A stretch of DNA of 54,974 nt. It comes from Ruminococcus sp. GTDB lineage: Bacteria; Bacillota; Clostridia; Oscillospirales; Ruminococcaceae. This document shows, piece after piece, positions 1 through 32,494 of this stretch; position 1 is the stretch's first letter; the number at the start of each line of letters is the position of its first letter. The stretch spans positions 1 through 54,974 of the forward strand of contig JALCDN010000004.1 of assembly GCA_022641595.1 (NCBI GenBank). Direction: 5' to 3'. The notes below the pieces were generated by a model. It made no database searches. It was not told the origin of the DNA and saw only the letters and a program-made list of their open reading frames with translations. A program made the translations under genes and the position numbers.

Positions 1-123
1 TCAGATATGTGCAGCAGCTGCAAGGAAACCTTCCGAAAGCGTGCTGTCGCACTATGAGGGAGGTTGACACAGCAGATGCCGTGCATAGCTGTTTTTTCTC
101 AAAAGGAGTTTTTAGAGATGCCC
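1..123 (+). repeat. Dispersed palindromic element, copy A (5' end cut by window edge)
   Basis: Shares tcagatatgtgc.gcagctgcaaggaaa ... gtgctgtcgcac ... gttgacacagcagatgccgtgcatagc ... ctcaaaaggagtttttagagatgccc with copies at 11287, 15573, 17684, 19139, 20647. Confidence 0.85.
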
Positions 124-1557: not shown

Positions 1558-2982
1558 ATGGGCGGTTTTTTTGGCGCTGCTTCAAAAAATGACTGCATAA
1601 GCGACGTTTTCTTCGGTACTGACTACCATTCACACCTCGGTACAAGACGTGGCGGTATGACTGCTTTTTCTGAGGCAAAAGGCTTTCAGCGAAGTATCCA
1701 CAGCATTGAAAACTCCCCTTTCAGAACAAAATTTGAAAAGGATATAGAACCTATGGAGGGCGGATTGTGTATCGGCTGTATCAGCGATACCGATCCTCAG
1801 CCTATCCTTGTCCGCTCAAAACTCGGTCTTTACGCCGTTTGTACGGTAGGTATCATTAATAATGCCGCTCAGCTCGAAACAGAACTCCTCGACAACGGCT
1901 GCGCAAGCTTTGAATCAATGAGCAGTGGCAAGATAAATTCAAGCGACCTCATCGGCGCTCTTATCGCTCAGAAAAAATCTTTCGTTGATGGAATAAAATA
2001 CGCTCAATCTAAGGTTACCGGCACTATGTCACTGCTGATACTCACAAATAACGAAATTATCGCTGCACGTGACAAAAACGGCAGACTTCCTATTATTGTC
2101 GGTAAACGTGATGACGGCTACTGCGTTTCATTTGAATCATTTGCCTTTCAAAAGCTCGGCTACGACATCTGTCACGAGCTTCTGCCCGGCGAAATCGTAA
2201 GCATTAAACCGGATAATTTTACGATTCTTTCAAAAGGCTGCCCTCAGGATATGAAAATCTGCTCATTCCTCTGGACTTATTACGGCTACCCTAACTCCGT
2301 CTACGAAAACGTTACTGTCGAAACCATGCGTACAAGAAACGGCGAAATTATGGCGGAATATGATATCAATAACGGCTCTCTGCCAGATGTTGACTACGTT
2401 TGCGGTATCCCGGATTCAGGCGTTCCGCACGCTATCGGCTATGCCAACAGAAGCGGTATCCCGTTCGCACGCCCTTTTATAAAATATACCCCAACATGGC
2501 CAAGAAGCTTTATGCCTCAGAACCAATCAATAAGAAATCAAGTCGCTAAAATGAAACTTATTCCGGTTCACGAACTTATTGAAGGCAAAAAACTTCTATT
2601 TGTCGACGACAGCATCGTAAGAGGCACTCAACTAAGAGAAACCGTTGAATTTCTTTATGCAAACGGTGCTAAAGAAGTCCATATGCGTTCTGCCTGCCCG
2701 CCTATTATGTATGGCTGCAAATATCTCAACTTCTCAAGAAGTACCTCAGAACTCGAACTCATCGCACGCAAAATTATCAATGACTTTGAGGGTGAGGACG
2801 GCATTAAATTCATCCGTGAATACAGTGACGCAAAAACCGAAAGAGGTAAAAGACTCAGAGCTGAAATCTGCGCCGGACTTAAACTTACCTCACTCGAATT
2901 TCAGTCCCTTGAGGGTACTGTTAAAGCAATAGGTCTGCCTGAATGCAACCTTTGCAGCTATTGCTGGGATGGAAAGGAATGA
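1558..2982 (+). CDS. Amidophosphoribosyltransferase-like paralog lacking the N-terminal catalytic Cys
   Basis: PurF-length protein with PRPP motif LLFVDDSIVRGT; N-terminus MGGFFGAAS instead of (M..)CGVFG; immediately upstream of canonical purF. Confidence 0.85.
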   Translation: MGGFFGAASKNDCISDVFFGTDYHSHLGTRRGGMTAFSEAKGFQRSIHSIENSPFRTKFEKDIEPMEGGLCIGCISDTDPQPILVRSKLGLYAVCTVGIINNAAQLETELLDNGCASFESMSSGKINSSDLIGALIAQKKSFVDGIKYAQSKVTGTMSLLILTNNEIIAARDKNGRLPIIVGKRDDGYCVSFESFAFQKLGYDICHELLPGEIVSIKPDNFTILSKGCPQDMKICSFLWTYYGYPNSVYENVTVETMRTRNGEIMAEYDINNGSLPDVDYVCGIPDSGVPHAIGYANRSGIPFARPFIKYTPTWPRSFMPQNQSIRNQVAKMKLIPVHELIEGKKLLFVDDSIVRGTQLRETVEFLYANGAKEVHMRSACPPIMYGCKYLNFSRSTSELELIARKIINDFEGEDGIKFIREYSDAKTERGKRLRAEICAGLKLTSLEFQSLEGTVKAIGLPECNLCSYCWDGKE

Positions 2983-2988
2983 CTCTGA

Positions 2989-4413
2989 TTGAATAAAGGT
3001 TTACACGAAGAATGCGGCGTTTTCGGTATCTATTCCCCTAACACCGCCGATATTGCTTATACTGTCTACCACGGTCTGTTCGCTCTGCAGCACAGAGGTC
3101 AGGAAAGCTGTGGCATCGTCGTCAATGATAACGGCGTATTCAGACACCACAAAGACGTCGGTCTCGTTCCTGATGTGTTCGGTCACAATAACCTCAAAGA
3201 ACTCGGTGAGGGAAATATCGCTGTAGGTCACGTCAGATACTCAACAACAGGAAACTGCACCCGCACTAACGCTCAACCTCTCGTTGTCCGTCACGTCAAA
3301 GGCTCTCTCGCTATAGCTCATAACGGAAACCTCGTGAATGCTTTCGCTCTGAGAGAAAAATTTGAGCTTAAAGGTGCTATTTTCCACACTACCAACGATA
3401 CCGAGGTAATCTCCTATGTGATTACCGAACACCGCCTTACTCAGCCTTCTATCGAAAAAGCTGTCGAAATGGCTATGGGCGAAATCAAAGGTGCTTTTTC
3501 TCTCGTTATAATGTCCCCGACAAAGCTCATCGCTGCGAGAGACCCGGATGGCTTCAGACCGCTTTGTATGGGAAAATGCAGCGACGGCTCAATCGTTTTC
3601 GCTTCGGAAAGCTGCGCTCTCGACAGCGTAGGTGCAGAATTTGTCCGTGACCTCGACCCAGGCGAAATGGTTGTAGTCGATGCGGACGGCATTCGCTCAA
3701 TCAGAACCCACTGCGGTAAAAAAGGCACTATGTGCGTTTTTGAATACGTCTATTTTGCTCGTCCGGACTCCGTTATACAAGGATGCGGCGTTCAGAAAGC
3801 AAGACTTAATGCCGGCAGGATTCTATGGGAAGAACACCCTGTTGATGCCGATATCGTAATCGGTGTTCCGGACAGCGGTCTCGATGCCGCCCTCGGATTC
3901 TCACAGGCTTCAGGTATCCCATACGGCGTTGGCTTTATAAAAAACAGATACATAGGCAGAACCTTTATTCAGCCTACTCAGACACAACGCACCAATTCAG
4001 TCAAAATCAAACTCAATGTGGTTCGTGAAATCGTAAAAGGCAAGCGTGTAATACTCATTGACGACAGCATCGTAAGAGGTACTACCTGTGCAAGAATCGT
4101 AAACCTTCTTCGTGAGGCCGGTGCAAAAGAAATCCATATGCGTATTTCATGTCCGCCTTTCATAAATCAATGCTACTTCGGCACCGATATCGACAGCAAA
4201 GAAAATCTTATCGCCTGTCAGATGTCAATTCCCGAAATCTGCAAGCAGGTAGGTGCCGATTCTCTCGGCTACCTCAGCGTTGACGGCGTTAAACGCATCG
4301 CTGCTGAAGCTCACTGCGACTTCTGTACCGGCTGCTTCACAGGAATTTACCCTATAGACGTTCCAAAAGTTATGCCTAAGGATAAATTTGAATGCAAAAT
4401 CAATAACAGATAA
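2989..4413 (+). CDS. purF: Amidophosphoribosyltransferase
   Basis: MNKGLHEECGVFGIYSP, HNGNLVN, VILIDDSIVRGTT; TTG start with upstream ggaaagga. Confidence 0.96.
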   Translation: MNKGLHEECGVFGIYSPNTADIAYTVYHGLFALQHRGQESCGIVVNDNGVFRHHKDVGLVPDVFGHNNLKELGEGNIAVGHVRYSTTGNCTRTNAQPLVVRHVKGSLAIAHNGNLVNAFALREKFELKGAIFHTTNDTEVISYVITEHRLTQPSIEKAVEMAMGEIKGAFSLVIMSPTKLIAARDPDGFRPLCMGKCSDGSIVFASESCALDSVGAEFVRDLDPGEMVVVDADGIRSIRTHCGKKGTMCVFEYVYFARPDSVIQGCGVQKARLNAGRILWEEHPVDADIVIGVPDSGLDAALGFSQASGIPYGVGFIKNRYIGRTFIQPTQTQRTNSVKIKLNVVREIVKGKRVILIDDSIVRGTTCARIVNLLREAGAKEIHMRISCPPFINQCYFGTDIDSKENLIACQMSIPEICKQVGADSLGYLSVDGVKRIAAEAHCDFCTGCFTGIYPIDVPKVMPKDKFECKINNR

Positions 4414-11241: not shown

Positions 11242-11270
11242 TTGACAGAACGAACTTAAAATGATATAAT
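11242..11270 (+). promoter_or_regulatory. Consensus sigma-A-type promoter of uvrC
   Basis: TTGACA - 17 bp - TATAAT. Confidence 0.85.
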
Positions 11271-11286
11271 AACGATAATCTATAGT

Positions 11287-11441
11287 GCACATCTAAAAAC
11301 TCGTTTGATTAAGGAAAAATCAAATTTGTGTGTCATATGCAAGGAAAGCTGTTTAAGGCGAACTTGTTGACCTCAAAGACGACTTGACAAAGCCGAGAAT
11401 GTGCATAGGCGATTTTTTTAAAAGAAACTTTTATAGGTGAC
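11287..11441 (+). repeat. Dispersed palindromic element, copy B (in uvrC leader)
   Basis: catctaaaaactcgtttgattaaggaaaaatc ... cttgacaaagc ... aatgtgcatagg ... ataggtgac. Confidence 0.85.
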
Positions 11442-11463
11442 ATATAGCCAAAGGAGTGAATTT

Positions 11464-13290
11464 ATGAATCAGAGACTTCCACTGCTTAGGGAAAAAACTT
11501 CAAAGCTTACGTCTTCACCCGGCGTCTATATTATGAAAAATAAAGACTCCGCTATAATTTATATCGGAAAAGCTAAAAATCTTAAAAATCGTGTAACAAG
11601 CTATTTCCGTGAAAATCCTGACCACACTCCAAAAGTTGCCGCTATGGTATCTAACGTATTCGATTACGATTTTATCGTCACTGACAGCGAATATGAAGCT
11701 CTCCTGCTTGAATGCAGCCTCATAAAACAACATAAACCTAAATATAATATCCTGCTGAAAGACGACAAGGGTTACCACTACATAAGAATCTCAGATGAAC
11801 AATTTCCACGCATCACTGCCGAAAAAAATACTCTTTCAGGCGGAACTTTCCTTGGCCCATATACGAGCGGTTTTATTACAAAGGAAACTGTCAATGAAGT
11901 CAATAAAGTTTTCAAGCTGCCTACCTGCCACAAGAAATTTCCTCAGGACTTTCATAAATCACGTCCATGCCTGAACTACAGCATAAAACAATGTATGGGA
12001 CTTTGCAGAGGTAAAATAAGCTGTGGAACATACAACGATATAATTTCTCAGGCTGTCGACTATATTAAAAACGGCAGCTCGGATTCTACTGAAAGAATGG
12101 AAGCACAAATGCTTGAGGCTTCCGACAAGCTCGACTTTGAACGTGCTGCTTTACTCCGTGACAGGATTAATGCAATCAGAAAATCTGCCGAAAAACAGAA
12201 AATTATGAATTGCAGCTTCAGCTGTGCTGATGTTATAGCTTCCGCCGAAGATTCAAGCGGCATATGTATTTCAGTTCTTATGTACCGTGAAAGCAGACTC
12301 TTCGATAAAGCTGCTTTCTTCTTTCCGATTCCGGATAAGGACGATGACCTGCTCTCATCATTTATGCAGCAGTTCTATCACGGAAAAACAGATATACCTA
12401 CTGCAATTATCCTCGAAACGCTGCCTTCAGAAACAGAACTTATTTCAACTATGCTTAAAGCTCAGTGCGGCAGAAAAATTGAACTGAGAGTCGCTCAACG
12501 TGGTCAATTCAGCGAACTTATAAGACTCGCAAAAAATAACAGTTCGGAATACCTCGCTATAAACTCCGGCAGAACTGCTAAGGAAGTTCTTGAACTTGAA
12601 GAACTCGCAAAAGCTCTCGGTCTTGCAAAACCTCCGCAATATATCGAAGCGTACGATATCTCAAACCTTTCCTCATCTTCTATGGTTGCAGGTATGGTTG
12701 TATTTGAAAACGGCAGACCTAACAAAAAAGCTTACAAACACTTCAACATTAAAGAGTTTTCTTCTCAGGACGATTACGGCTGTATGCACGAGGTTCTTAA
12801 AAGACGACTTTCACGGATAGGTTCGGATGACTCTGACCAATTTTTCGCAAGATGCCCTGACCTTATACTCCTCGATGGCGGTAAAGGTCATGTTAATGCT
12901 GTCGCTCCACTGCTTTCAGAGTATAATCTGGATATTCCGCTGTTCGGTATGGTAAAGGACGGCAAACACAGAACAAGAGCTATCTCTACCGGCGACAAGG
13001 AAATTCAGCTTACCTCAATCCATTCCGCTTTTATGCTGCTTACAAGAATACAGGACGAGGTTCACAGATTCTCTGTGAGCTTTATGCATTCAAAACATAA
13101 ACAAAGCACTTACCTTTCAGAATTTACATCAGTAAAAGGAATCGGTACAAAAAAAGCCGCAAAGCTTATGTCTGTATTCAAAACAAAGGATAACCTCAAA
13201 AAAGCTTCACCATCAGATATCAAATCAGCTCTTTCTATAAATGACTCAACGCTCTCGGAACTACTTCAGATTATCTCAGATATGAAATGA
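11464..13290 (+). CDS. uvrC: UvrABC excinuclease subunit C
   Basis: PGVYIMKNKDSAIIYIGKAKNLKNRVTSYF; LILLDGGKGHVNAV. Confidence 0.97.
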   Translation: MNQRLPLLREKTSKLTSSPGVYIMKNKDSAIIYIGKAKNLKNRVTSYFRENPDHTPKVAAMVSNVFDYDFIVTDSEYEALLLECSLIKQHKPKYNILLKDDKGYHYIRISDEQFPRITAEKNTLSGGTFLGPYTSGFITKETVNEVNKVFKLPTCHKKFPQDFHKSRPCLNYSIKQCMGLCRGKISCGTYNDIISQAVDYIKNGSSDSTERMEAQMLEASDKLDFERAALLRDRINAIRKSAEKQKIMNCSFSCADVIASAEDSSGICISVLMYRESRLFDKAAFFFPIPDKDDDLLSSFMQQFYHGKTDIPTAIILETLPSETELISTMLKAQCGRKIELRVAQRGQFSELIRLAKNNSSEYLAINSGRTAKEVLELEELAKALGLAKPPQYIEAYDISNLSSSSMVAGMVVFENGRPNKKAYKHFNIKEFSSQDDYGCMHEVLKRRLSRIGSDDSDQFFARCPDLILLDGGKGHVNAVAPLLSEYNLDIPLFGMVKDGKHRTRAISTGDKEIQLTSIHSAFMLLTRIQDEVHRFSVSFMHSKHKQSTYLSEFTSVKGIGTKKAAKLMSVFKTKDNLKKASPSDIKSALSINDSTLSELLQIISDMK

Positions 13291-13335
13291 TATTATTACC
13301 ATTATGATGAATTTTAAGTTTTTTTTGATAATGTA

Positions 13336-13364
13336 TGGACAAATTTCAAAAAATGAGTTATAAT
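13336..13364 (+). promoter_or_regulatory. Promoter upstream of rsmD
   Basis: TGGACA - 17 bp - TATAAT. Confidence 0.65.
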
Positions 13365-13468
13365 GATACAAGGTAGCTTGTAAAAATCTGTTTGATTCAA
13401 CTTATTTTTATTATCTGATGTTTTCAGAACACCCCCCTAAAGGTTACCATTATAATGAGGTGAAGCCA

Positions 13469-14023
13469 ATGAGAGTCATTACAGGCTCTGCTCGTGGTAG
13501 AAAACTGATTTCCCCTATCGGTATGGACGTCAGACCTACTACTGATAAAGTTAAAGAAGCTGTCTTTTCAGCTATTCAATTCAATATTCCGGACAGCTAC
13601 GTTCTCGACCTCTTCGCCGGAAGCGGTCAGATGGGCATAGAAGCACTCAGCCGTGGTGCTGCCAGAGCTTTTTTTATCGACAGCTCTAAAGATTCTATTA
13701 AAGTTATTACAGAAAATCTAAGAACTACTAAACTTGATAAGTTCTCAGAAGTCATTCTCCGTGACAGCTATGACTATATAAGTCTCACTACAAGAACCTT
13801 CGATATAATTATACTCGACCCACCCTACAGATTCGGTCATATATATAAGGTTCTGCCATTAGCCGCTGCCAAGCTTAACCCAGGCGGAATAATTATCTGC
13901 GAATATGAAGCCGATGCCGCTGAACCTCAACCTGCTGACGGTCTCATTTTAAGAAAGACTTACAAGTATGGTAAAATCTGCGTTTCCATTTTCTGTAAAC
14001 CGGATTCGGAGGACGATAAATGA
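13469..14023 (+). CDS. rsmD: 16S rRNA (guanine966-N2)-methyltransferase
   Basis: MRVITGSARGRKL, LDLFAGSGQMGIEALSRGA, IILDPPY; start at 13469 after gaggtgaa. Confidence 0.93.
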   Translation: MRVITGSARGRKLISPIGMDVRPTTDKVKEAVFSAIQFNIPDSYVLDLFAGSGQMGIEALSRGAARAFFIDSSKDSIKVITENLRTTKLDKFSEVILRDSYDYISLTTRTFDIIILDPPYRFGHIYKVLPLAAAKLNPGGIIICEYEADAAEPQPADGLILRKTYKYGKICVSIFCKPDSEDDK

Positions 14024-14511
14024 GACGTGTTGCTGTTTGCCCGGGCAGCTTTGACCCGGTTACACTCGGTCACCTCGACATAATTACAAGAGCTTCTAAA
14101 TTGTTCGATAAGGTAATCGTTCTTATTTCACGAAATGCAGGCAAATATCAGCCAAGTTTCACTTCTACCGAACGAATGCTTATGATTCAGTCTGTTACAG
14201 AAGGTCTCGACAACGTAGTTATTGATATCCTCGACGGTCTGCTCGCAGATTATGTCCGTGAAGTCGGCGCTATAGCTATAGTAAAAGGTCTGAGAGCCGT
14301 AAGCGACTTTGAATACGAATTCCAAATGGCTCTCGCAAATAAAAAACTCTATGCAGGCGCTGAAACCGTTTTTCTTACTACTACCGCAGAAAATATGTAC
14401 CTGAGTTCAAGCGTCGTCAAGCAAATCGCTTACTTTGGCGGAGATATCAGTCACTTTGTTCCCGAATGTATACTTGATGATATTAAAGAAAGATTAGTTA
14501 AAGAGAGGTAA
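14020..14511 (+). CDS. coaD: Pantetheine-phosphate adenylyltransferase
   Basis: AVCPGSFDPVTLGHLDII; overlaps rsmD stop. Confidence 0.97.
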   Translation: MRRVAVCPGSFDPVTLGHLDIITRASKLFDKVIVLISRNAGKYQPSFTSTERMLMIQSVTEGLDNVVIDILDGLLADYVREVGAIAIVKGLRAVSDFEYEFQMALANKKLYAGAETVFLTTTAENMYLSSSVVKQIAYFGGDISHFVPECILDDIKERLVKER

Positions 14512-14517
14512 TTTCCT

Positions 14518-14970
14518 ATGAGTATTGATGAAATCCTTGAAGAAATGGACGAACTGCTCGATAAATCTTCTTCGATGCCTTTTATGGCTCATAAAAAAAT
14601 TGTGGACGGTGAAAGACTCAGAGAACTTATCAATGATGTAAGACTTAATATGCCTCACGAACTGAAAGAGGCTAAACAAATCGAATTCGACTCCCAGAGA
14701 ATCCTTAACGAAGCTAAGAGAAATGCCGAAACTATTATCCATAAAGCCGAAGAAAGAGCCGGTCAGCTCGTGGCTAAAGAAGTTATCGTTGTTGAAGCTA
14801 AGAAAAAAGCCGTGGATATGATTATGAAAGCTCAGCAGGCTACAAAAAACCTACAGTCTACTGCTGCCGCTTCAATAACAAAAATGCTGACAGATACAGA
14901 AACATATTATGCTAAGAATTTACAGGAAGTAAAAGCTGTAAAATTAAGACTTTCCAATAAGAAAAATTAA
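14518..14970 (+). CDS. Coiled-coil protein of unknown function (conserved neighbour of coaD in Clostridia)
   Basis: Glu/Lys/Ala-rich helix, RBS agagagg. Confidence 0.65.
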   Translation: MSIDEILEEMDELLDKSSSMPFMAHKKIVDGERLRELINDVRLNMPHELKEAKQIEFDSQRILNEAKRNAETIIHKAEERAGQLVAKEVIVVEAKKKAVDMIMKAQQATKNLQSTAAASITKMLTDTETYYAKNLQEVKAVKLRLSNKKN

Positions 14971-15053
14971 AAAATTAGGTTCAATAGAAATTTTAATAGT
15001 TTGTTAATGAATTGTTCATATTTGTGTGTTATGATATTAGTATAGTTAAACGC

Positions 15054-15091
15054 AAAGGAGCGTAGCTTTTATTCAGCTACGCTCCTTTTTT
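15054..15091 (+). terminator. Rho-independent terminator
   Basis: AAAGGAGCGTAGCT tttattc AGCTACGCTCCTTTTTT. Confidence 0.9.
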
Positions 15092-15111
15092 ACTTTTTAC
15101 GGAGGTTTCTT

Positions 15112-15546
15112 ATGGACAAAATTGATGCAAAATTAATTACTCTTTTACAGGAAAACGCAAGGACTCCGCTGAAAGTTCTTGCTTCAAAAGTCTTTCTCTC
15201 CGCTCCTGCTGTATCTTCAAGAATTGATAAGCTCGAACGTCAGGGAATTATCAAGGGCTACAATACAATTGTAAACAGACAAATTCTCGGATACCACATA
15301 ACCGCTTTCATAAATCTTGAGCTTTCTGCTGAACAGAAACCGGTTTTTTACCCTTTCATCAGCGATTGTCCAAATGTTCTCGAATGCAACTGTGTTACCG
15401 GCACATACTCTATGCTGATAAAAGTTGCTTTCCCAAGTACTCAGGAACTCGACACTTTTATCGGTCAGCTTCAGCACTATGGCAATACTTCTACTCAGAT
15501 AGTTTTCTCTACACCTGTACCACACAGAGAAATTTGTGTTGAATAG
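15112..15546 (+). CDS. Lrp/AsnC family transcriptional regulator
   Basis: MDKIDAKLITLLQENARTPLKVLASKVFLSAPAVSSRIDKLERQGIIKGY. Confidence 0.92.
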   Translation: MDKIDAKLITLLQENARTPLKVLASKVFLSAPAVSSRIDKLERQGIIKGYNTIVNRQILGYHITAFINLELSAEQKPVFYPFISDCPNVLECNCVTGTYSMLIKVAFPSTQELDTFIGQLQHYGNTSTQIVFSTPVPHREICVE

Positions 15547-15572
15547 AAACTTGTTCTAATTTTCGGCATACC

Positions 15573-15734
15573 GGGTACTTCTAAGAACTCGTTTGATTAA
15601 GGAAAAATCAGATAGTTGCGGCTGCTGAAAGGAAACTTTATGAAAACGTGCTGTCGCACTATGAGTGAGTTTAACACAGTAGATGCCGTGCATAGCTGTT
15701 TTTTATCAAAAGAAAGTTCTTAAAGAGAGATACC
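15573..15734 (+). repeat. Dispersed palindromic element, copy C
   Basis: gggtacttctaagaactcgtttgattaaggaaaaatcaga ... gtgctgtcgcac ... tagatgccgtgcatagc ... ttcttaaagagagatacc. Confidence 0.85.
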
Positions 15735-15749
15735 ATACTGTTAATTTCA

Positions 15750-16613
15750 TCACATATAAAGCTTTTCAAGCCTTTTACGCAGCTTCTTTATTATCTTTTT
15801 TTCAAGCCTTGATATATAGGATTGCGATATGCCAATCATTTCAGCCACTTCTTTCTGAGTTTTCTCTTTTCCATCGAGAAGTCCGAATCTCATCTCCATT
15901 ATCTCACGTTCACGCTCTCCAAGCTCATTTACCGCATCACGCAGCATTTCACGTTCAGCCTCATTTTCTATTCCCTTGTTTACAACGTCCTCATCGGTTC
16001 CGAGTATATCGGACAGCAGAAGCTCATTTCCGTCATAATCAACATTAAGCGGCTCATCTATCGAAAGCTCATTCCGATATTGCGATGACTTTCTCAAAAA
16101 CATAAGTATTTCATTTTCTATACACCTCGAGGCATATGTTGCAAGCTTTATTTTTTTATTCGGACAAAATGTATTCACTGCCTTAATAAGTCCTATTGTA
16201 CCTATTGATACGAGGTCTTCAACGCCTATGCCTGTTGATTCAAACTTCTTGGCTATATAAACAACAAGTCTCAGATTATGTACTATAAGACGTTCCCTTG
16301 CAGAGCTGTCATTTTCTTCAAGTCCTTGAAATACCTTTTCTTCCTCTTCCCTCGAAAGCGGCGGAGGCAATGTATCTGAACCGTTTATATAATGAACTCC
16401 GCCCGCTATAAGCTTATTGATTTTTTCAACAATAAAATCAATTCTGAATATGCTGCTTTTGAAAAAATATACTGAAATACGAGGAAAATGTACAGGGAAT
16501 TTCCATCTGTGCTTCGATACGCTTCTTAGCTGGCGAGCAAAGCTTTTCTCTTTATCAGCATTTTTTTTGAAATGACAATTTTTAGAATCTGCTGCTAATT
16601 TTATTATTTTCAT
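15750..16613 (-). CDS. sigE: RNA polymerase sporulation sigma factor SigE (pro-sigma-E)
   Basis: [32 protein letters not shown], sigma-70 regions 2 and 4; N-terminal pro-like segment; next to spoIIGA. Confidence 0.9.
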
Positions 16614-16630
16614 ATTCTTCTTTCCTTTGC

Positions 16631-17461
16631 TTATAATTTCAGAAGTGCCGGATTGAATATTCCGCTCTCACCACCGCTTCTGATACCTATCATTGCTTCT
16701 ACACTCTTTCTTTCTCCGCTGTTAATATTCTCTATGAGTATCTCATCAGGAGTAAATATCGGCAGCATTCCGCTGTTCCCTATGGTTTTGTACGGTATCA
16801 GCCTGAAACCTCTTGGCATCTGTTTGTTTTCATATATATCAGCTTTTACATTCACCAATGCTTTAAGGTCGATATCACTACATATGATAACTGGCTTTCC
16901 ACTGAAAAAATCAACAAGAGAATTTCCGGTATCTGCAATTCCGCTTAAATTTACGGTCTCGCCTTTGTATTTTATATACAGCTTGTATGATGCTTCAAGG
17001 CAACCAAATCTGTCCATAAAGTATCTGAACACACAAAGTGATGTATACAGTGCCGTCGTTACCCCTATAAGCAGAAACAAAGAAAAATCAACATAAAAAT
17101 ATGTATTGTTGAACTGCATAAATGATGGCTCAAGCCATATGTAAACTGCATACACGACTCCTGCAAAAATAAAATTTGACGCTAAAAAGCATACCATATT
17201 TACAACATACCTTTTTCTGCTTTTATACCCGAATGCCATCGGAACTATTGTTGCAGCTGCAATAAGCTTCAGCAGAATATTCAGAATTGCATTCAGATTC
17301 GGTACAAGTATCAGAAGTGAATAAAGGCTTCCATATGCTGAGGCTAAAAGACATCTTTTTACAGATGCACGACTGTGCGTCAGCTTTCCTGTAGTTCTCA
17401 GCAAAAGGTAGTTCACATAGATATTCAGTATTATAAGTACGTCAACGTATATTGTCTGCAT
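16631..17461 (-). CDS. spoIIGA: Sigma-E processing peptidase SpoIIGA
   Basis: N-terminal 5 TM region, DTGNSL aspartic protease motif, directly upstream of sigE. Confidence 0.9.
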
Positions 17462-17599
17462 TTAACCACCGCCTGATATTATTATAATGCTTATTCACTG
17501 CAGATTATGTCGATTGAATGCACCGTCATTAAAACCTGCGACAAAGTTTTCAGAACTTCTTCTCAGAGGTACAAATAAATTATCATATAAATAAGAATA

Positions 17600-17658
17600 A
17601 TCGTCCTGTATTTTTCATATAATTACTCAGAAATTATAAATGACAGGACGGTTTTTTA
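17600..17658 (+). terminator. Hairpin followed by T-run (orphan terminator/attenuator)
   Basis: CGTCCTGT ... TATAATT actcag AAATTATA ... ACAGGACG GTTTTTTATT. Confidence 0.7.
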
Positions 17659-17683
17659 TTATGAAATTTTTTAAATTATTGAA

Positions 17684-17836
17684 ATTTCTAAAAACATATT
17701 TGATAAACCAAAAATCAGATATGTGCGTCAGATGCAAGGAAGGTTGTTTAAGGCGGACTTTTGCCCTCAATGACGGCTTGACGAAGCAAATGATGTGCAT
17801 AGGCGTTTTTTTTAAAAAGAGGTTTTTAGAGATGCC
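17684..17836 (+). repeat. Dispersed palindromic element, copy D
   Basis: tttctaaaaacatatttgataaaccaaaaatcagatatgtgcgtcagatgcaagg ... cttgacgaagcaaatgatgtgcatagg ... aaaaagaggtttttagagatgcc. Confidence 0.85.
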
Positions 17837-19031
17837 ATTATGCTTTGTATTATTACTTGCACTGATTACTACAGGTTGTGGCAGTACTGCTTTACAGGAT
17901 TCTTCTGTTTCTGATAACTCAGATGTTTCAGACAAGAACCTCTCACTTTATGAACAGTCGGAAAATCAGCTCTACCTTGACGCTTCCGCTGACGAAAATC
18001 CACAAAAAATTCAAAGCTCAGCTTATGAGCCGCTAAATTATGATTACCAAAAAAGTATCTGGCTTCCGGTATTCAATTACAAAAACCTTATGCTCGATAA
18101 ATCAGAAGATGAATTTCGCTCAAACATAAGAAAATATCTCTCAGATGCCAAAAGTCAAGGATATAACACAATATATGCTCATTCAAGAGCCTATTCGGAC
18201 GCATATTACAACTCTTCTATTTTCCCAAAGGGAGAATTTTATAACGGCAAATATGACCCTCTTGCTATTATGCTTGACGAGGCACACAAGCTTAAACTTT
18301 CAGTTCACGCTTGGATTAACCCTTTGAGATGCTTTACCGTTGAGGAAATGAAAAATGTTTCCGATAACTTCATTGTCAGAAAATGGGCAGACCAAAAATC
18401 TGACTCCTATATCCGTGCGGTTGACGGAAGATTTTTCCTAAATCCTGCTTACGATGAGGTCATTTCTCTGATTTCGGACGGCGTAAAAGAAATCGTCTCA
18501 AATTATAATGTTGACGGAATCCACATTGACGATTACTTCTACCCCACAACAAGCCCGGATTTCGACAATCAGGCTTTTGCTCAGAGCGGTCAGAATGACC
18601 TGTCAAAATGGAGAATCAATAACTGCAATAAGCTTGTCAAATCTATATATGACACAATAAAATCAGTAAATCCAAAGGTTCTGTTCGGCATAAGTCCGCA
18701 AGGAAATATCACCTCCGACTACGCTTCACAATACGCCGACGTAAAACTTTGGGCAGGTACCTGCGGCTATTGTGACTACATCGTACCTCAGATTTACTTC
18801 GGTTTCAACAATCAATCCTGCCCTTTCAACGATGTCCTCGCTCAATGGGAATCAATTACAGTATGCGACAACGTTTCGCTCGTTATCGGTCTTGCCGCCT
18901 ATAAACTCGGCAAGGAAGACAAATGGGCAGGCTCGGGTTCTCAGGAATGGATAGAAAATAGTGACATCATAACAAGACAAATTCAGACAGTCGAAAAATC
19001 CTCCGCCAAAGGATACGCTGTCTTTTATTAA
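17832..19031 (+). CDS. Lipoprotein with glycosyl-hydrolase-like GHL10 (PF02638-type) domain
   Basis: Lipobox LLALITTGC; YNTIYAHSRAYSDAYY, HAWINPLR, VDGIHIDDYFYP, DYIVPQIYFGF; in-frame ORF extends to 17640 but that part is repeat copy D. Confidence 0.8.
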   Translation: MPLCFVLLLALITTGCGSTALQDSSVSDNSDVSDKNLSLYEQSENQLYLDASADENPQKIQSSAYEPLNYDYQKSIWLPVFNYKNLMLDKSEDEFRSNIRKYLSDAKSQGYNTIYAHSRAYSDAYYNSSIFPKGEFYNGKYDPLAIMLDEAHKLKLSVHAWINPLRCFTVEEMKNVSDNFIVRKWADQKSDSYIRAVDGRFFLNPAYDEVISLISDGVKEIVSNYNVDGIHIDDYFYPTTSPDFDNQAFAQSGQNDLSKWRINNCNKLVKSIYDTIKSVNPKVLFGISPQGNITSDYASQYADVKLWAGTCGYCDYIVPQIYFGFNNQSCPFNDVLAQWESITVCDNVSLVIGLAAYKLGKEDKWAGSGSQEWIENSDIITRQIQTVEKSSAKGYAVFY

Positions 19032-19063
19032 TATCACTCCATGAATTAATTTTCTTCACTTTT

Positions 19064-19111
19064 GGGCAACTCTAAAAAATATTTGATAAAGGGAAAATCA
19101 TTTATGGGTAC
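19064..19111 (+). repeat. Partial dispersed element, copy E (left end only)
   Basis: gggcaactctaaaaaatatttgataaagggaaaatcatttatgggtacc. Confidence 0.7.
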
Positions 19112-19138
19112 CATATAATTACTGAACTATAGACATTA

Positions 19139-19296
19139 AGGCACCTCTAAAAACTCGTTTGATTAAGGAAAAATCAGATATGTGCGGCAGCTGCAAGGAA
19201 AATTGTTTAAGGAGTGCTAATTGCACTCCAAAACGACTTGACAAAGCAGATGCCGTGCATAGCTTTTTTTCTCAAAAGGAGTTTTTAGAGGTGCCC
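19139..19296 (+). repeat. Dispersed palindromic element, copy F
   Basis: ggcacctctaaaaactcgtttgattaaggaaaaatcagatatgtgcggcagctgc ... ctcaaaaggagtttttagaggtgccc. Confidence 0.9.
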
Positions 19297-19419
19297 ATTA
19301 CTTTAGAGGTACCCTTTACATACTTATTTTAAATGTGGTGTATATAAATACAAGAAGTTTTGGCAATAGTAAATTTGGAAAAAATAGAGTAACAACCGAT
19401 TGGTAGAGCTTTTTAGAAT

Positions 19420-20340
19420 TTACTCGGTAAAATTGCAATTATCGTGAGGCCCGATGATAAAAGAAACAGCTTTATTATCATTGGAAATAATATTGACCTG
19501 ATTGCTGCCGCCGTATTCGCCATCGAGAGTCCATGTGATAGGGGTGTCGCTCAGAGAAGTAAATTTAATGTGGCTTGTCCTGAAGCATTTAATGTAATCC
19601 TTGTCGAGGTCTTGAGTGATGTTAAGGAGGGAGTGAAGAATTTGTTGCAGCTGCATAACGTTGGCAGGTTTTTTGATAATTGTGACTTCAAAAAGACCGT
19701 CATCGAGAAGAAAGTCACTGAGAGACAGAAGTCCCGCAACAGAAGAAGAATTTGTTACCATACCGTATATGAAGTCGTCCTCGATTATATTTTCGTCGTA
19801 TTCAATACGCATGCGGTTGGCCTTGATGCTTGTAAGTTGGAACATACTGCTGAATATGTAAGCGGCATGACCAAATAGGTTTTTGATTTGCTGAGAAGTT
19901 TCGTAGGTGACGTTTGTAAAGGCGCCGAAAGCTACAATATAGGTAAAAAAGCCATCGTTGAACCGACCGACATCGCATGGTGTAGGTGAGCCGTCGATTA
20001 TCCATTGGACAGCATTTGTAATACCTTTAGGTATGCCAAGACCTTTAGAGAAATCGTTAGTAGAGCCTGCCGGAATGTAGCCGATAGGGATATGATTTGA
20101 TGCATTCATAATACCCTCAATGCATTCACTGAGAGTGCCGTCTCCTCCTGCGCATACAATGAGGTCGAATCCGTTTTCGCAAGCATACGTTGAAGCATTA
20201 ACAGCGTCACGTTTTTCCTGAGTTGGGTGAGCAGTAACTTCGTAGTCAGCTTTGGTGAACATATCGAATATATCGCATAAGCTGTCACCGATGACAGCTT
20301 TTCCTGCTTGTGGGTTAAAAATAAAGTACAGTTTTTTCAT
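19420..20340 (-). CDS. Diacylglycerol/lipid kinase family protein (YegS/DgkB-like)
   Basis: FIFNPQAGK, VCAGGDGTLSECIEGIM, PAGSTNDFSKGLGIP. Confidence 0.93.
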   Translation of the reverse strand: MKKLYFIFNPQAGKAVIGDSLCDIFDMFTKADYEVTAHPTQEKRDAVNASTYACENGFDLIVCAGGDGTLSECIEGIMNASNHIPIGYIPAGSTNDFSKGLGIPKGITNAVQWIIDGSPTPCDVGRFNDGFFTYIVAFGAFTNVTYETSQQIKNLFGHAAYIFSSMFQLTSIKANRMRIEYDENIIEDDFIYGMVTNSSSVAGLLSLSDFLLDDGLFEVTIIKKPANVMQLQQILHSLLNITQDLDKDYIKCFRTSHIKFTSLSDTPITWTLDGEYGGSNQVNIISNDNKAVSFIIGPHDNCNFTE

Positions 20341-20646
20341 TATATTTTATTCAAAGCAAAGTCTGAATTTCTTATATATTGATGTGCCAACTAAGTTTTT
20401 AATTTTTCTGTTTGCCTAAAAGCCAAAATCTGTCGTCAGAAAAACTTGCAATATACCAGTATTACTGTGCTTTTCTTTCTAAGCTTTTGACTTTTATTCT
20501 GCACATAAAATATTCACAGGTTAGCTACCACATCAATAATCTGTCAGTGTGTTGTAAATTTTGGTAAGAAAACGGACTTTAATCTGAATTACTCCTCTCT
20601 ATAAAAATGCAAACAGGGTATTTCTAAAAGACTTTCTTCAACATAT

Positions 20647-20804
20647 GAGTACCTCTAAAAACTCGTTTGATTAAGGAAAAATCAGACAGGTGTGGCAGCT
20701 GCAAGGAAATCTTCCGAAAGAGTGCTGTCGCACTATGAGGGAGGTTGACACAGTAGATGCCGTGTATAGCTGTTTTTTCTCAAAAGGAGTTTTTAGAGGT
20801 GCCC
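20647..20804 (+). repeat. Dispersed palindromic element, copy G (extra right terminus at 20821-20838)
   Basis: gagtacctctaaaaactcgtttgattaaggaaaaatcaga ... gtgctgtcgcac ... ctcaaaaggagtttttagaggtgccc. Confidence 0.9.
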
Positions 20805-20900: not shown

Positions 20901-22088
20901 TTATTTTGCAAGAGCAGTCTTGATTTCTGAAATTTTGTCAGTTTTTTCCCAGGCGACATTCAGGTCTTCACGGCCCATATGACCGTATGCGGCGAGTTGT
21001 CTGTACTGAGGTTTTCTGAGGTTGAGCATTTTTATAATTGAAGAAGGGCGAAGGTCGAAAACTTTTTCTACAGCTTTTTCGAGAGCGTCCTCAGAGACTT
21101 TTCCCGTACCGAAAGTATCTACAAGTATAGAAACCGGCTTAGCGACGCCTATAGCGTAAGCGAGCTGAACTTCGCATTTGTCGGCGAGGTCAGCGGCAAC
21201 AATATTCTTAGCAATATAGCGTGCAGCGTAAGCAGCAGAGCGGTCAACCTTAGTTGGGTCTTTACCGCTGAAAGCACCACCGCCGTGGCGAGAGTATCCG
21301 CCATATGTATCGACGATAATTTTTCTGCCGGTAAGACCGCTGTCGCCCTGAGGACCGCCAATAACAAAACGACCGGTAGGATTGATATAAATTTTTGTAT
21401 TGCTGTCCATAAGATTCTGAGGGATAACAGGCTTTATGACAAATTCAGTGATATCCTCTCTGATTCTTTCGAGAGTAACCTCAGGAGCGTGCTGAGATGA
21501 TATAACGACTGTATCGACACGAACAGGCTTACCGTCGTCATATTCGATAGTGACCTGAGATTTACCATCTGGTCTTAAGTAGCGAAGAGTGCCGTTTTTG
21601 CGGACTTCTGTGAGCTTCATTGATAGCTTGTGTGCGAGTGAAATAGGCATAGGCATAAGCTCAGGAGTTTCTTTGCAGGCAAAACCGAACATAATACCCT
21701 GATCGCCTGCACCTGTAGAAGCATCATCAGTATGCTGAGTGTTATCTCTGTATTCGAGAGCCTCATCAACACCCATAGCGATATCGCTTGATTGTTCGTC
21801 AATAGATGTCATAACAGCACAAGTGTGACCGTCGAAGCCGAATTTAGCTCTGTCGTAACCGATGTCGACTACAACCTGACGAACAATGCTTGGGATATCG
21901 ACTTTAGCTTTTGTAGAAATTTCGCCCATACACAGTACAAGACCTGTAGTGCAAGCAGTTTCGCAGGCAACACGTGCGAATTTGTCCTGTTCAAGGATAG
22001 CGTCGAGAACGGCATCTGAAATCTGGTCGCAGATTTTATCGGGATGACCTTCTGTAACTGATTCTGAAGTGAATAAATTTTTAGACAT
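20901..22088 (-). CDS. metK: S-adenosylmethionine synthetase
   Basis: [37 protein letters not shown]; start at 22088 after ggagg. Confidence 0.98.
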
Positions 22089-22296
22089 TTTTAACCTCCA
22101 CAATTTTAAAATCAGAGGGAACTTCAAAAAAACTGACTAAGGTAACTTTATCAATAGGCTGCAGCGATAAAAGTCGTGTATAGATTTGTCGGAAATATAC
22201 AAAGTAAGCAGTTTGCTGCTATAAGCATAAAAGTCAGATTTTAAGATATGTTCCAAAGTGAATAAGCAGTTATAATTGCCTTAGAAAGTTTGCAAA

Positions 22297-22530
22297 TAAA
22301 AAAGCGTCTTAAAATCCATAAGACGCAATGATTTTATAAAAATCCTCATCTGCCGGATAAACCGCAGGAATTAGCACCTTTCCTAAGGATACACATTAGT
22401 TGTAAAAACGTTATTTACAGTTACTGCCGATTGGCATCTGAAGTAAATAATGAATTTAAAGCAACATAAGGTGTAAACAGTCAGGTTGCCGGGCTTCACA
22501 GGACCTGTTCCTCCACCACTCTTGATAAGG
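22297..22530 (-). ncRNA. SAM-I (S-box) riboswitch plus terminator upstream of metK
   Basis: Reverse complement: cttatcaagagtggtggaggaacaggtcctgtgaagcccggcaacc ... ggtgctaattcctgcgg; terminator GCGTCTTA tggattt TAAGACGC TTTTTT. Confidence 0.93.
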
Positions 22531-22545
22531 TCAATTATTACACTT

Positions 22546-26385: not shown

Positions 26386-26426
26386 AGGGCATCTCTAAAA
26401 ACACATTTTAAAGGAGAACTTTTGAA
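26386..26426 (+). repeat. Remnant of dispersed element overlapping RBS of ABC ATPase gene
   Basis: gggcatctctaaaaacacattttaaaggagaacttttgaa resembles both termini joined. Confidence 0.5.
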
Positions 26427-27449
26427 ATGCAGAATTTAATAGAAATAAAAGAAGTGAGTAAAGAATTTAAAATACTTAACAGAAGAGAAGGTCTTATCGG
26501 AAGCGTAAAAGACCTCTTTTCACGAAATTATAAAATCGTCAAAGCCGTTGATAATATTTCAATTAGTATCGCACCGGGAGAAATTGTCGGATATCTTGGA
26601 CCTAACGGTGCAGGAAAATCAACAACAATCAAAATGATGACAGGTGTTCTTGAACCTACAAGCGGAGAAATTCTCGTAAACGGCAACGTACCTTACAAAA
26701 ACCGAAGCAAAAATGCTCAGGAAATCGGAGTAGTGTTTGGACAGCGTTCACAATTGTGGTGGTCATTACCTTTAATTGAATCATTTCGGCTGCTAAAGGA
26801 CATCTACCAAATTGATGATTCAGAATATGAAAATGTTATTAAGCTATATAAATCACTTGTCGACATTGAACCTCTTTTGCATAAGCCAGTGCGTCAGATG
26901 TCACTCGGTCAAAGAACACTGAGTGATATTCTTGCGGCATTTCTGCACAACCCTAAAATAGTATTTCTTGACGAACCAACTATCGGACTTGACGTCTCTA
27001 TGAAAAATAAAATTCGTATTCTTATACAGGCACTTAACCACGAAAAAAATACAACCGTAATTCTTACCACCCACGATATGGGTGATGTAGACGCCCTATG
27101 TAAGAGAATAGTAATTATTGACAAAGGCAAAATGCTATATGACAACGATATCGAACATCTGAAAGGATTCTTTGGTTCATATAGAACACTAAAGCTCAGA
27201 TTGGGCGAAAATGAAACACAACAGACAGATGTTAATCTTGAAAATGCTCTCGCAAAGCATTTTACAGAGTATGAAGCAATCTCTGTTTCTTCAGATGATG
27301 AATGGACAAGCATACTTATTAATGAAGAAAAAATAAAGCTTATGGACGTAATGAAAGCTGTTCAGGATAATTATTTTATCCGTGATATGAAGCTTGAGGA
27401 AATTTCAACAGAAGAAGTTATAAGAAAAATTTATGAGGAGGGTGTGTAA
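26427..27449 (+). CDS. ABC transporter ATP-binding protein (ABC-2 exporter)
   Basis: GYLGPNGAGKSTTIKMMTGVLEP; MSLGQRTLSDILAAFLHNPKIVFLDEPTIGLD. Confidence 0.95.
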   Translation: MQNLIEIKEVSKEFKILNRREGLIGSVKDLFSRNYKIVKAVDNISISIAPGEIVGYLGPNGAGKSTTIKMMTGVLEPTSGEILVNGNVPYKNRSKNAQEIGVVFGQRSQLWWSLPLIESFRLLKDIYQIDDSEYENVIKLYKSLVDIEPLLHKPVRQMSLGQRTLSDILAAFLHNPKIVFLDEPTIGLDVSMKNKIRILIQALNHEKNTTVILTTHDMGDVDALCKRIVIIDKGKMLYDNDIEHLKGFFGSYRTLKLRLGENETQQTDVNLENALAKHFTEYEAISVSSDDEWTSILINEEKIKLMDVMKAVQDNYFIRDMKLEEISTEEVIRKIYEEGV

Positions 27450-31290: not shown

Positions 31291-31471
31291 TATATGTTTT
31301 AAATTAATTATAACATTTCGTTATAATTAAGTCAATTTTCAAGTAGCACAAAAAAATCTTAAAAAACTGTGAATTTTGTATAAAGTTTCAAATATATATT
31401 GATTTTTCTTTTACCATATGTTATAATTCCATTATAGTAAATCTTTACAAGAAAGGAAGATGAATTTAATT

Positions 31472-32494
31472 ATGTTAAAAAACTTTTTATCAGGACTTAT
31501 TGGTGCCGTTATGATGACATCTGTTTGTGCAGGAACTATTATCGCTCCAAAGAGTAACGCCCATGCTTCGGACGATACAGCTGTTCAGACAATTGAAAGT
31601 CCTGTTCTCATCAATCTTAATGCCCTTGCTTCAGAAGACAGCGTATCGCCTTCTGACAAGGCAGCCGTACCTTCTGTAACTGACACTGCTTCTGATTCGG
31701 CTGACAAATCTGCTGCAAATGCTTTTAAAGTGTTTGAAATATATGATGCTTACAATCAGTACATTAATCAACAAACAACAGAAACCACTACTACAACTAC
31801 AACCACAACTACAACTACAACCACAACTACCACTACCACAACTACTACAACTTCTTTACCTGCTACAACAAGAATATCTTGCGGAATCGATGTCTCAAGA
31901 CATCAGGGAAATATTGACTGGACTGCTGTAAAAAATGCCGGTGTCGACTTTTCAATCATCCGTGCAGGATATGGCGACCTCGTTTCTCAGGAAGATGTGA
32001 ATTTCAGAACAAATATGGACGGAGCAAAATCTGTACAAATGCCTTGCGGTGCATACTGGTATAGCTATGCCACAACAATCGAAGATGCTTACCTTGAAGC
32101 AGAAACCTGCTATCAGGTAATTAAAGATTACCAATTTGAATATCCGATTGTTTTCGATATCGAAGACAGTTCGCAAAAATATCTCGGTGCTGCAACTATT
32201 TCCGGAATCATTGAAGCTTTCTGTTCTACCCTCGAAAACAAAGGCTATTATGTAAGCTTATACAGCTATTCAAGCTTCCTTAATACAAACGTATATAAAA
32301 CAACTTTGGAAAGATATGATATCTGGGTTGCACATTATGATGTAAGCAGTCCGGCTTTTGCAGGAAATTACGGTATGTGGCAATATTCGTCAAGCGGTAA
32401 TATTAACGGAATTCCGGAAGACGTTGATCTTGATTATGCTTATAAAGATTATCCGAAAATAATGAAAACGTTTAAATTTAACGGATTTAAATAA
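31472..32494 (+). CDS. Secreted GH25 lysozyme with poly-Thr linker
   Basis: ISCGIDVSRHQGNIDWTAVKNAGVDFSIIRAGYGD; IVFDIED; signal peptide; start 31460 or 31472. Confidence 0.9.
   Translation: MLKNFLSGLIGAVMMTSVCAGTIIAPKSNAHASDDTAVQTIESPVLINLNALASEDSVSPSDKAAVPSVTDTASDSADKSAANAFKVFEIYDAYNQYINQQTTETTTTTTTTTTTTTTTTTTTTTTTSLPATTRISCGIDVSRHQGNIDWTAVKNAGVDFSIIRAGYGDLVSQEDVNFRTNMDGAKSVQMPCGAYWYSYATTIEDAYLEAETCYQVIKDYQFEYPIVFDIEDSSQKYLGAATISGIIEAFCSTLENKGYYVSLYSYSSFLNTNVYKTTLERYDIWVAHYDVSSPAFAGNYGMWQYSSSGNINGIPEDVDLDYAYKDYPKIMKTFKFNGFK
31771..31852 (+). repeat. (ACN)n trinucleotide tract encoding the Thr linker
   Basis: caacaaacaacagaaaccactactacaactacaaccaca... Confidence 0.85.

Follow-up and report, generated by a model that had tools for sequence, protein, structure and literature searches.

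Palindromic element copies in the window

The window analysed here, a stretch of 54,974 nt, is contig C4 of a 1.97-Mb metagenome-assembled genome (MAG; 82 contigs, 81% complete) of Ruminococcus sp. (GenBank GCA_022641595.1, contig JALCDN010000004.1). It holds repeated copies of a palindromic element of about 158 bp, which an original prediction made from the sequence alone had described as a dispersed family with terminal inverted repeats (TIRs) and a conserved core, with every copy on the same strand. Five full copies and one cut by the contig end lie within a few bases of the predicted sites (Table 1), all of them on the + strand. The TIRs and the core are real features of the copies, which fold better than dinucleotide shuffles of themselves (z -6.7 for copy 20647; Table 1 for copy 19139). 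The copy at position 1 is indeed incomplete, but it had been thought to be truncated by the window, whereas the cause is an assembly break at the repeat. Beyond 20.8 kb there is, as predicted, no full copy; there is one solitary TIR-like end at 26387-26401 (+), which as GGGCATCTCTAAAAACAC extends over 26387-26419 and lies just before the gene at 26427, with no matching right end.

Table 1. Element copies in the window. Bit scores are from R1, a covariance model trained on Ruminococcus cores only, with the TIRs removed. TSD, target-site duplication.
Feature	Position	Strand	Details
Partial copy without the left ~35 bp	1..123	+	contig starts inside the copy; same sequence as the beginning of contig C43
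Diverged full copy	11285..11442	+	R1 73.0 bits; TSD TATA/TATA with a 1-nt shift
Full copy, small insertion near the right end	15573..15734 (right edge approximate)	+	R1 110.3 bits
Diverged full copy	17680..17837	+	R1 102.0 bits; TSD TTAT/TTAT
Full copy, sub-family with a different yet still pairing central arm	19139..19296	+	-77.7 kcal/mol, z -11.2; TSD ATTA/ATTA
Full copy, main sub-family	20647..20804	+	TSD ATAT/ATAT
Core of copy 20647: AGGAAA ... TTGACA internal-loop motifs around an apical hairpin	20703..20751	+	
Left TIR of copy 20647	20647..20664	+	GAGTACCTCTAAAAACTC; consensus GGGYAYCTCTAAAAACTC
Right TIR of copy 20647	20787..20804	-	reads GGGCACCTCTAAAAACTC on the - strand

Two copies have informative surroundings. 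Copy 19139 is flanked by a truncated left end (19060-19140) and a lone right TIR fragment (19300-19316), an arrangement that would fit insertion into an older copy. A perfect promoter-like site, TTGACA-17-TATAAT with TG before the second hexamer, lies at 11242-11270 (+), 15 bp upstream of copy 11285. Because this site is directly upstream, the copy would be transcribed within the 5' untranslated region (UTR) of a gene whose start is at ~11464.

Ends, target sites and an IS5-type partner

The unit is 158 bp long and runs from GGGYAYCTCTAAAAACTC to GAGTTTTTAGARRTRCCC, with TIRs of 18 bp. Its length varies between 155 and 160 bp by single bases, and the element therefore has no conserved reading frame. 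Exact W-rich TSDs of 4 bp (TTAA, ATAT, TATA, TTAT) flank 40 of 72 copies in the MAG, as against 4.3 expected when flanks are re-paired, and most of the remaining copies show a TSD match after a shift of 1-2 bases. Exact 4-bp TSDs were likewise found at 17 of 22 copies in congener G079 (1.6 expected) and at 22 of 30 in congener G020 (3.0 expected). R1 detected 79 copies in the MAG, dispersed on many contigs rather than confined to a single segmental duplication, 135 in G079 and 57 in G020. Several contigs begin or end inside copies; these counts are minima because assembly breaks at the element. A search of plasmids and phages for the element itself found none.

These properties divide the label "MITE/REP-like" that the repeat had been given. 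The element is a miniature inverted-repeat transposable element (MITE): it has TIRs and a 4-bp TSD, carries no transposase gene, and shares its ends with an IS5-type partner in relatives. A REP-like nature is not supported, there being no short REP unit; the REP/RAYT class consists of palindromes of 20-40 bp without TSDs, whereas this is a TIR-bounded 158-bp unit with TSDs.

The window holds no transposase gene, as predicted. A full-length transposon with the same termini was found in congener G079 and in a Flavobacteriales MAG. The Flavobacteriales element (locus L129) is 1214 bp long, with GGGTACCTCTAAAAACTC ends, TTCA/TTCA flanks and one gene encoding DUF772 and DDE_Tnp_1 domains (Pfam), by which we classify it as an IS5-type insertion sequence (IS). 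In G079 an IS of this kind lies in two parts at the ends of contig C160; its termini match, its flanks are TTAA/TTAA, and remnants are present in G097 and G078. The IS and the MITE have the same 15-18 bp ends and a 4-bp TSD, but only the IS has a transposase, and only the ends are common to the two. A search of three loci (L129, L197 and L201) with R2, a core model built without any streptococcal sequence, gave no match. An origin of the MITE by internal deletion of the congener IS is rejected, since the TIR is all that they share and the IS has no core match.

Ends of this type also bound other elements. Hairpin elements of ~160 bp with the same TIRs and another interior (CGTCAGA...ATGACGG) were seen in Oscillospiraceae SIG700 (L111, L115, L134, L142, L143, L155 and L161) and at L147, L160, L174, L185 and L193; one of their strands is much stabler than the other, and neither R1 nor R2 matches them. 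Treponema and other spirochaetes (L085, L099, L104, L127, L165 and L188) have elements of 130-131 bp with GGGAACCTCTAAAAACTTCAG ends and a nested internal inverted repeat, which are another MITE family with IS5-type ends.

A conserved fold under strand-specific selection

In copy 20647 the + strand folds far better than the - strand (-64 versus -46 kcal/mol), although both beat the shuffles. A role as an intrinsic terminator appears unlikely: a U-tract follows the hairpin in Ruminococcus but not in the Paenibacillus copies described below, and a terminator scanner calls none in the window copies. No Rfam family matched at its gathering score, the only hits being sub-threshold matches to miRNA- and snoRNA-like families.

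We searched 100 loci, picked for a TIR-like end, with R1. Matches outside Ruminococcus were obtained in Pilibacter (Pilibacter termitis; E 4.5e-4), Lactococcus (Lactococcus hodotermopsidis; 7.7e-4) and an unclassified Bacillota MAG (3.3e-4), each sitting in a TIR-bounded element and in the same register. These scores alone are not decisive, because the element, as a palindrome, also scores 23-35 bits on its reverse strand. We regard as support independent of them the motif AGGAAA-N-TTGAC, which occurs at matching positions in Ruminococcus, Pilibacter, L. hodotermopsidis and the Bacillota MAG (background expectation 0.004 per element), and in variant form in L. laudensis.

Two-sided compensatory change was found at 27 of 36 pairs in A3, a MAFFT alignment of 14 sequences, in which 87% of cells pair, compared with 67% after shuffling (all 500 shuffles were lower) and 34-49% on sliding. 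Invariant pairs are those next to the internal loops, whose motifs, AGG.A and GAC, are themselves nearly invariant. When Paenibacillus and streptococcal members were included, giving 30 sequences in an alignment fitted to the model, 35 of 36 pairs were compensatory, and one G-C pair beside the AGG.A/GAC loop was kept in 30 of 30.

A G-U pair on one strand is an A-C mismatch on the other. G-U cells outnumber A-C cells by 216 to 9 in the genus alignment and by 77 to 6 across families, with no row having an A-C majority. Moreover, in 14 of 14 representatives the more stable fold belongs to the strand that corresponds by homology to the Ruminococcus + strand. Because a DNA cruciform would be symmetric, whereas G-U far exceeds A-C, these data suggest that selection sees a single strand, most simply as RNA.

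The same observations bear on the possibility that the element is an ordinary MITE, with an interior of inert filler and a palindrome that reflects only its origin (inverted ends, cruciform DNA) and has no RNA function. TIRs, TSDs and multiple copies are indeed all that defines a MITE, its orientation is random to genes (see below), and its stems lose pairs after insertion without clear preference for G-U. However, inert filler would not be expected to keep the core motifs, or to retain 27 to 35 of the 36 pairs through compensatory change in families with otherwise diverged helices, and a cruciform, which uses both strands equally, does not fit the G-U excess or the consistently stabler strand. 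We therefore consider an inert interior unlikely.

Orientation relative to genes and replication

The shared orientation of the copies, put forward in the original prediction as a trait of the family, does not extend beyond the window. Genome-wide, copies use both strands, and between tandem flanking genes the RNA strand is sense in 22 cases and antisense in 19. Pairs of copies within contigs of the MAG have the same orientation in 43 cases and opposite orientations in 20 (p 0.009), but 15 of the pairs come from this contig, without which the counts fall to 28 and 20. Comparison of copy orientation with coding bases and GC skew gave a weak trend at most. Since orientation is random to genes across the genome, the same-strand run in the window is probably due to chance.

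A host regulatory RNA, riboswitch-like or acting as an mRNA-stability element, that has become repetitive would account for a conserved fold with invariant loops and for the copy between the perfect promoter-like site and a gene; BOX modules, discussed below, are also reported to alter downstream gene expression in work cited in PMC3049150. The random orientation relative to flanking genes argues against such an RNA, as do the TSDs, which mark the copies as insertions, and the absence of the element from most congeners (TIR-like ends are present in 22 of the 125 genomes of the genus). We regard this explanation as very improbable.

Alternatively, the one-strand hairpin could work as single-stranded DNA, for example on the lagging strand, joining the ends for the transposase. 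The fold pairs the two TIRs directly, G-T and tandem G-A pairs are tolerated in DNA too, no transcription is needed, and element length stays at ~155-161 bp in several families. Nevertheless, TIRs with fixed 4-bp TSDs indicate a double-stranded DDE mechanism, and there is no evident replication-strand bias: 8 of the 19 copies in a complete Paenibacillus chromosome are on the leading strand and 11 on the lagging strand, with oriC assumed at the start of the record, and the GC-skew test is a weak one. A hairpin acting as DNA is thus a rather poor candidate.

Relation to BOX repeats and distribution of the core

The BOX repeats of pneumococcus were first recognised decades ago and are the basis of a typing method; they were concluded to be parasitic, and no function has been assigned to them. 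In pneumococcus and Streptococcus mitis they are built as boxA-boxB-boxC, with TIRs, TSDs and a folded RNA whose apical boxB makes few contacts, and BOX-type repeats also occur in S. suis (Croucher et al., PMC3049150). The Ruminococcus element resembles them in having TIRs, TSDs, a similar size and more than 100 copies per genome, and in forming a hairpin RNA with a separable apical module and the core motifs AGGAA ... CAAGG ... TGAC in the same order. A 125-bp Ruminococcus variant (L113) lacks the apical module only, just as BOX A1C1 lacks boxB; no tandem or multi-boxB array was seen. The two differ in their hosts, which belong to different orders of bacteria, and in their ends. BOX has ATACTC...GAGTAT; the element described here has the IS5-type TIR GGGYAYCTCTAAAAACTC, and is therefore a BOX-type relative and not a BOX element proper.

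A recorded BOX of S. pseudopneumoniae (MK448497.1, L463; ~151 bp) reads ATACTC...CTAGGAAGCTAGCCGCAGG-boxB-CTACGGCAAGGTGAAGCTGACG...GAGTAT. Within this record, model R3 finds its best match exactly on the BOX core, accommodating an insertion of 57 nt (11.8 bits, E 0.088). R2 matched a streptococcal element with ATACTC...GAGTAT ends (L439:1104-1209, E 6e-7), and the recorded BOX can be aligned to it over both halves, in either case with 0 of 2000 shuffles. For the Paenibacillus core, alignment to the two BOX halves gave shuffle fractions of 0 and 0.01. Homology of the core to BOX thus appears to be supported through a chain from Ruminococcus to Paenibacillus, to streptococcal elements and to BOX. 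The original prediction had recognised no named family. This agrees with the lack of an Rfam match and with a literature search, mostly of non-subscription sources, in which the TIR strings were not found, but not with the apparent homology of the core to streptococcal BOX. A scan with the BOXA1R primer matched only an unrelated phage contig, and the exact BOX string was not found in viral contigs or plasmids.

R2 also detected the core in two Paenibacillus-type genomes, so assigned by a 77% match to P. cellulosilyticus, with 19 copies in G474 and 4 in G515; these elements are 158-161 bp long with related TIRs, GGGCGTGTCTGAAAACTC. Another genus of the same family (G476) has the core with other outer sequence: at L400, L405 and L410 it lies within a three-copy repeat of ~300 bp whose ends, AGCAGTRGRGAGCCGAACCC ... 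GGGTTCGGCTCCCTACTGCT, are of yet another kind. Further matches came from a Bacilli genus with genomes of 2.0-2.3 Mb, taken to be Streptococcus from a short S. suis phage match and BOX-like ends. Matches at Bacteroidota loci L087, L137 and L180 are composite palindromes of unsure homology. A single-copy core at L403 (G457) lies directly upstream of a Shine-Dalgarno-like AAGGAGG and an ATG; no TIR was found there, and this core may be a relic or else a host-side RNA.

A mobile element with a probable structured RNA core

We conclude that the copies are probably a non-autonomous, IS5-mobilised MITE, distantly of BOX type, that carries a conserved structured RNA core. The ends, the TSDs and the matching IS are observed directly. 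A DUF772/DDE_Tnp_1 transposase acting in trans would cut at the 18-bp ends, and the 158-bp unit would insert at AT-rich 4-bp sites, which are then duplicated. Because of the covariation, the asymmetry between G-U and A-C, and the homology to BOX, the comparisons show the interior module, predicted to be a long hairpin with AGG.A opposite GAC loops and a separable apical hairpin in a boxB-like position, to be conserved across Bacillota and, by the same signals, under strand-specific selection to fold. We infer an RNA role for this core, most likely on read-through from a neighbouring promoter, the fold being bound by a factor or simply forming co-transcriptionally. Such a fold may protect the inserted copy, ends included, against decay and against transcription or translation passing through it, which would lower the cost of carrying copies and soften their effect on neighbours. 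The main alternative to this protection by read-through RNA is that the core takes part in transposition itself. Selection would seem to act on the spread of the element and not on host regulation, because copies have no preferred orientation with respect to genes and, once in place, seem to decay under no strong constraint.

Several results weigh against this conclusion. The MAG, at 81% completeness, yielded no transposase, and a TIR-pattern search of two complete Paenibacillus genomes found no pair of ends at IS length; support for mobilisation in trans is indirect for these reasons. Because A4 and A5 are alignments fitted to the model, their pair counts favour it; A1 and A3 were made with MAFFT. 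Scored directly with R3, the BOX record gives a weak value, since boxB forms a large insertion in it, and no significant match resulted when the Ruminococcus core was aligned locally to the BOX halves, which is why the homology rests on intermediates. Finally, recent substitutions within copies show no clear G-U excess (G-U:A-C of 42:44, 18:16 and 33:19 in three genomes), for which reason constraint appears to act during spread and to be weak or absent after insertion. An excess of G-U among recent substitutions in two genomes was an artefact of top-scoring copies and mostly disappeared in a fuller sample.

What appears to be new is a BOX-type class outside streptococci, with IS5-type ends and a common core supported by covariation; the class itself is known. 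With the same covarying core found within IS5-type ends in Ruminococcus, Lactococcus, Pilibacter and Paenibacillus, the partner enzyme of BOX and the role of its RNA become directly testable. The comparison also suggests that a bacterial MITE can retain a conserved interior over very long periods even though its ends change, and that streptococcal BOX and these repeats form one widespread family. More tentatively, the BOX core might be a widespread class of structured RNA in Bacillota mobile elements, with three or more types of end (IS5-type CTCTAAAAACTC, GTGTCTGAAAACTC and streptococcal ATACTC) and an AGG.A/GAC loop that is bound by a conserved protein and required for multiplication; we consider this possible but doubtful.

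Comparison with other repeats, and other features of the window

Two further repeat systems were compared by description only. Correia elements of Neisseria, which have terminal inverted repeats of ~26 bp and a length of ~100-156 bp, are likewise intergenic and give a folded RNA, but their ends are unrelated and they duplicate TA. The bcr1-bcr3 repeats of the Bacillus cereus group are described as mobile and MITE-like, bcr1 being ~150-170 bp long, and as often transcribed in UTRs (Kristoffersen 2011, as cited in PMC3446304); on that description they are similar to the present element in mobility and size.

Elsewhere in the window, a SAM riboswitch (Rfam RF00162, 65.9 bits) lies at 22343-22531 (-), upstream of the - strand gene at 20901-22127. 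Two adjacent open reading frames (ORFs) of 474 aa at 1558-4413 (+) have in common an 81-bp stretch that is ~70% identical (direct repeat D6) and are apparently tandem paralogues. The 344-aa ORF at 31460-32494 has a low-complexity linker rich in threonine, encoded at 31772-31874 by repeated ACAACT/ACCACT codons.

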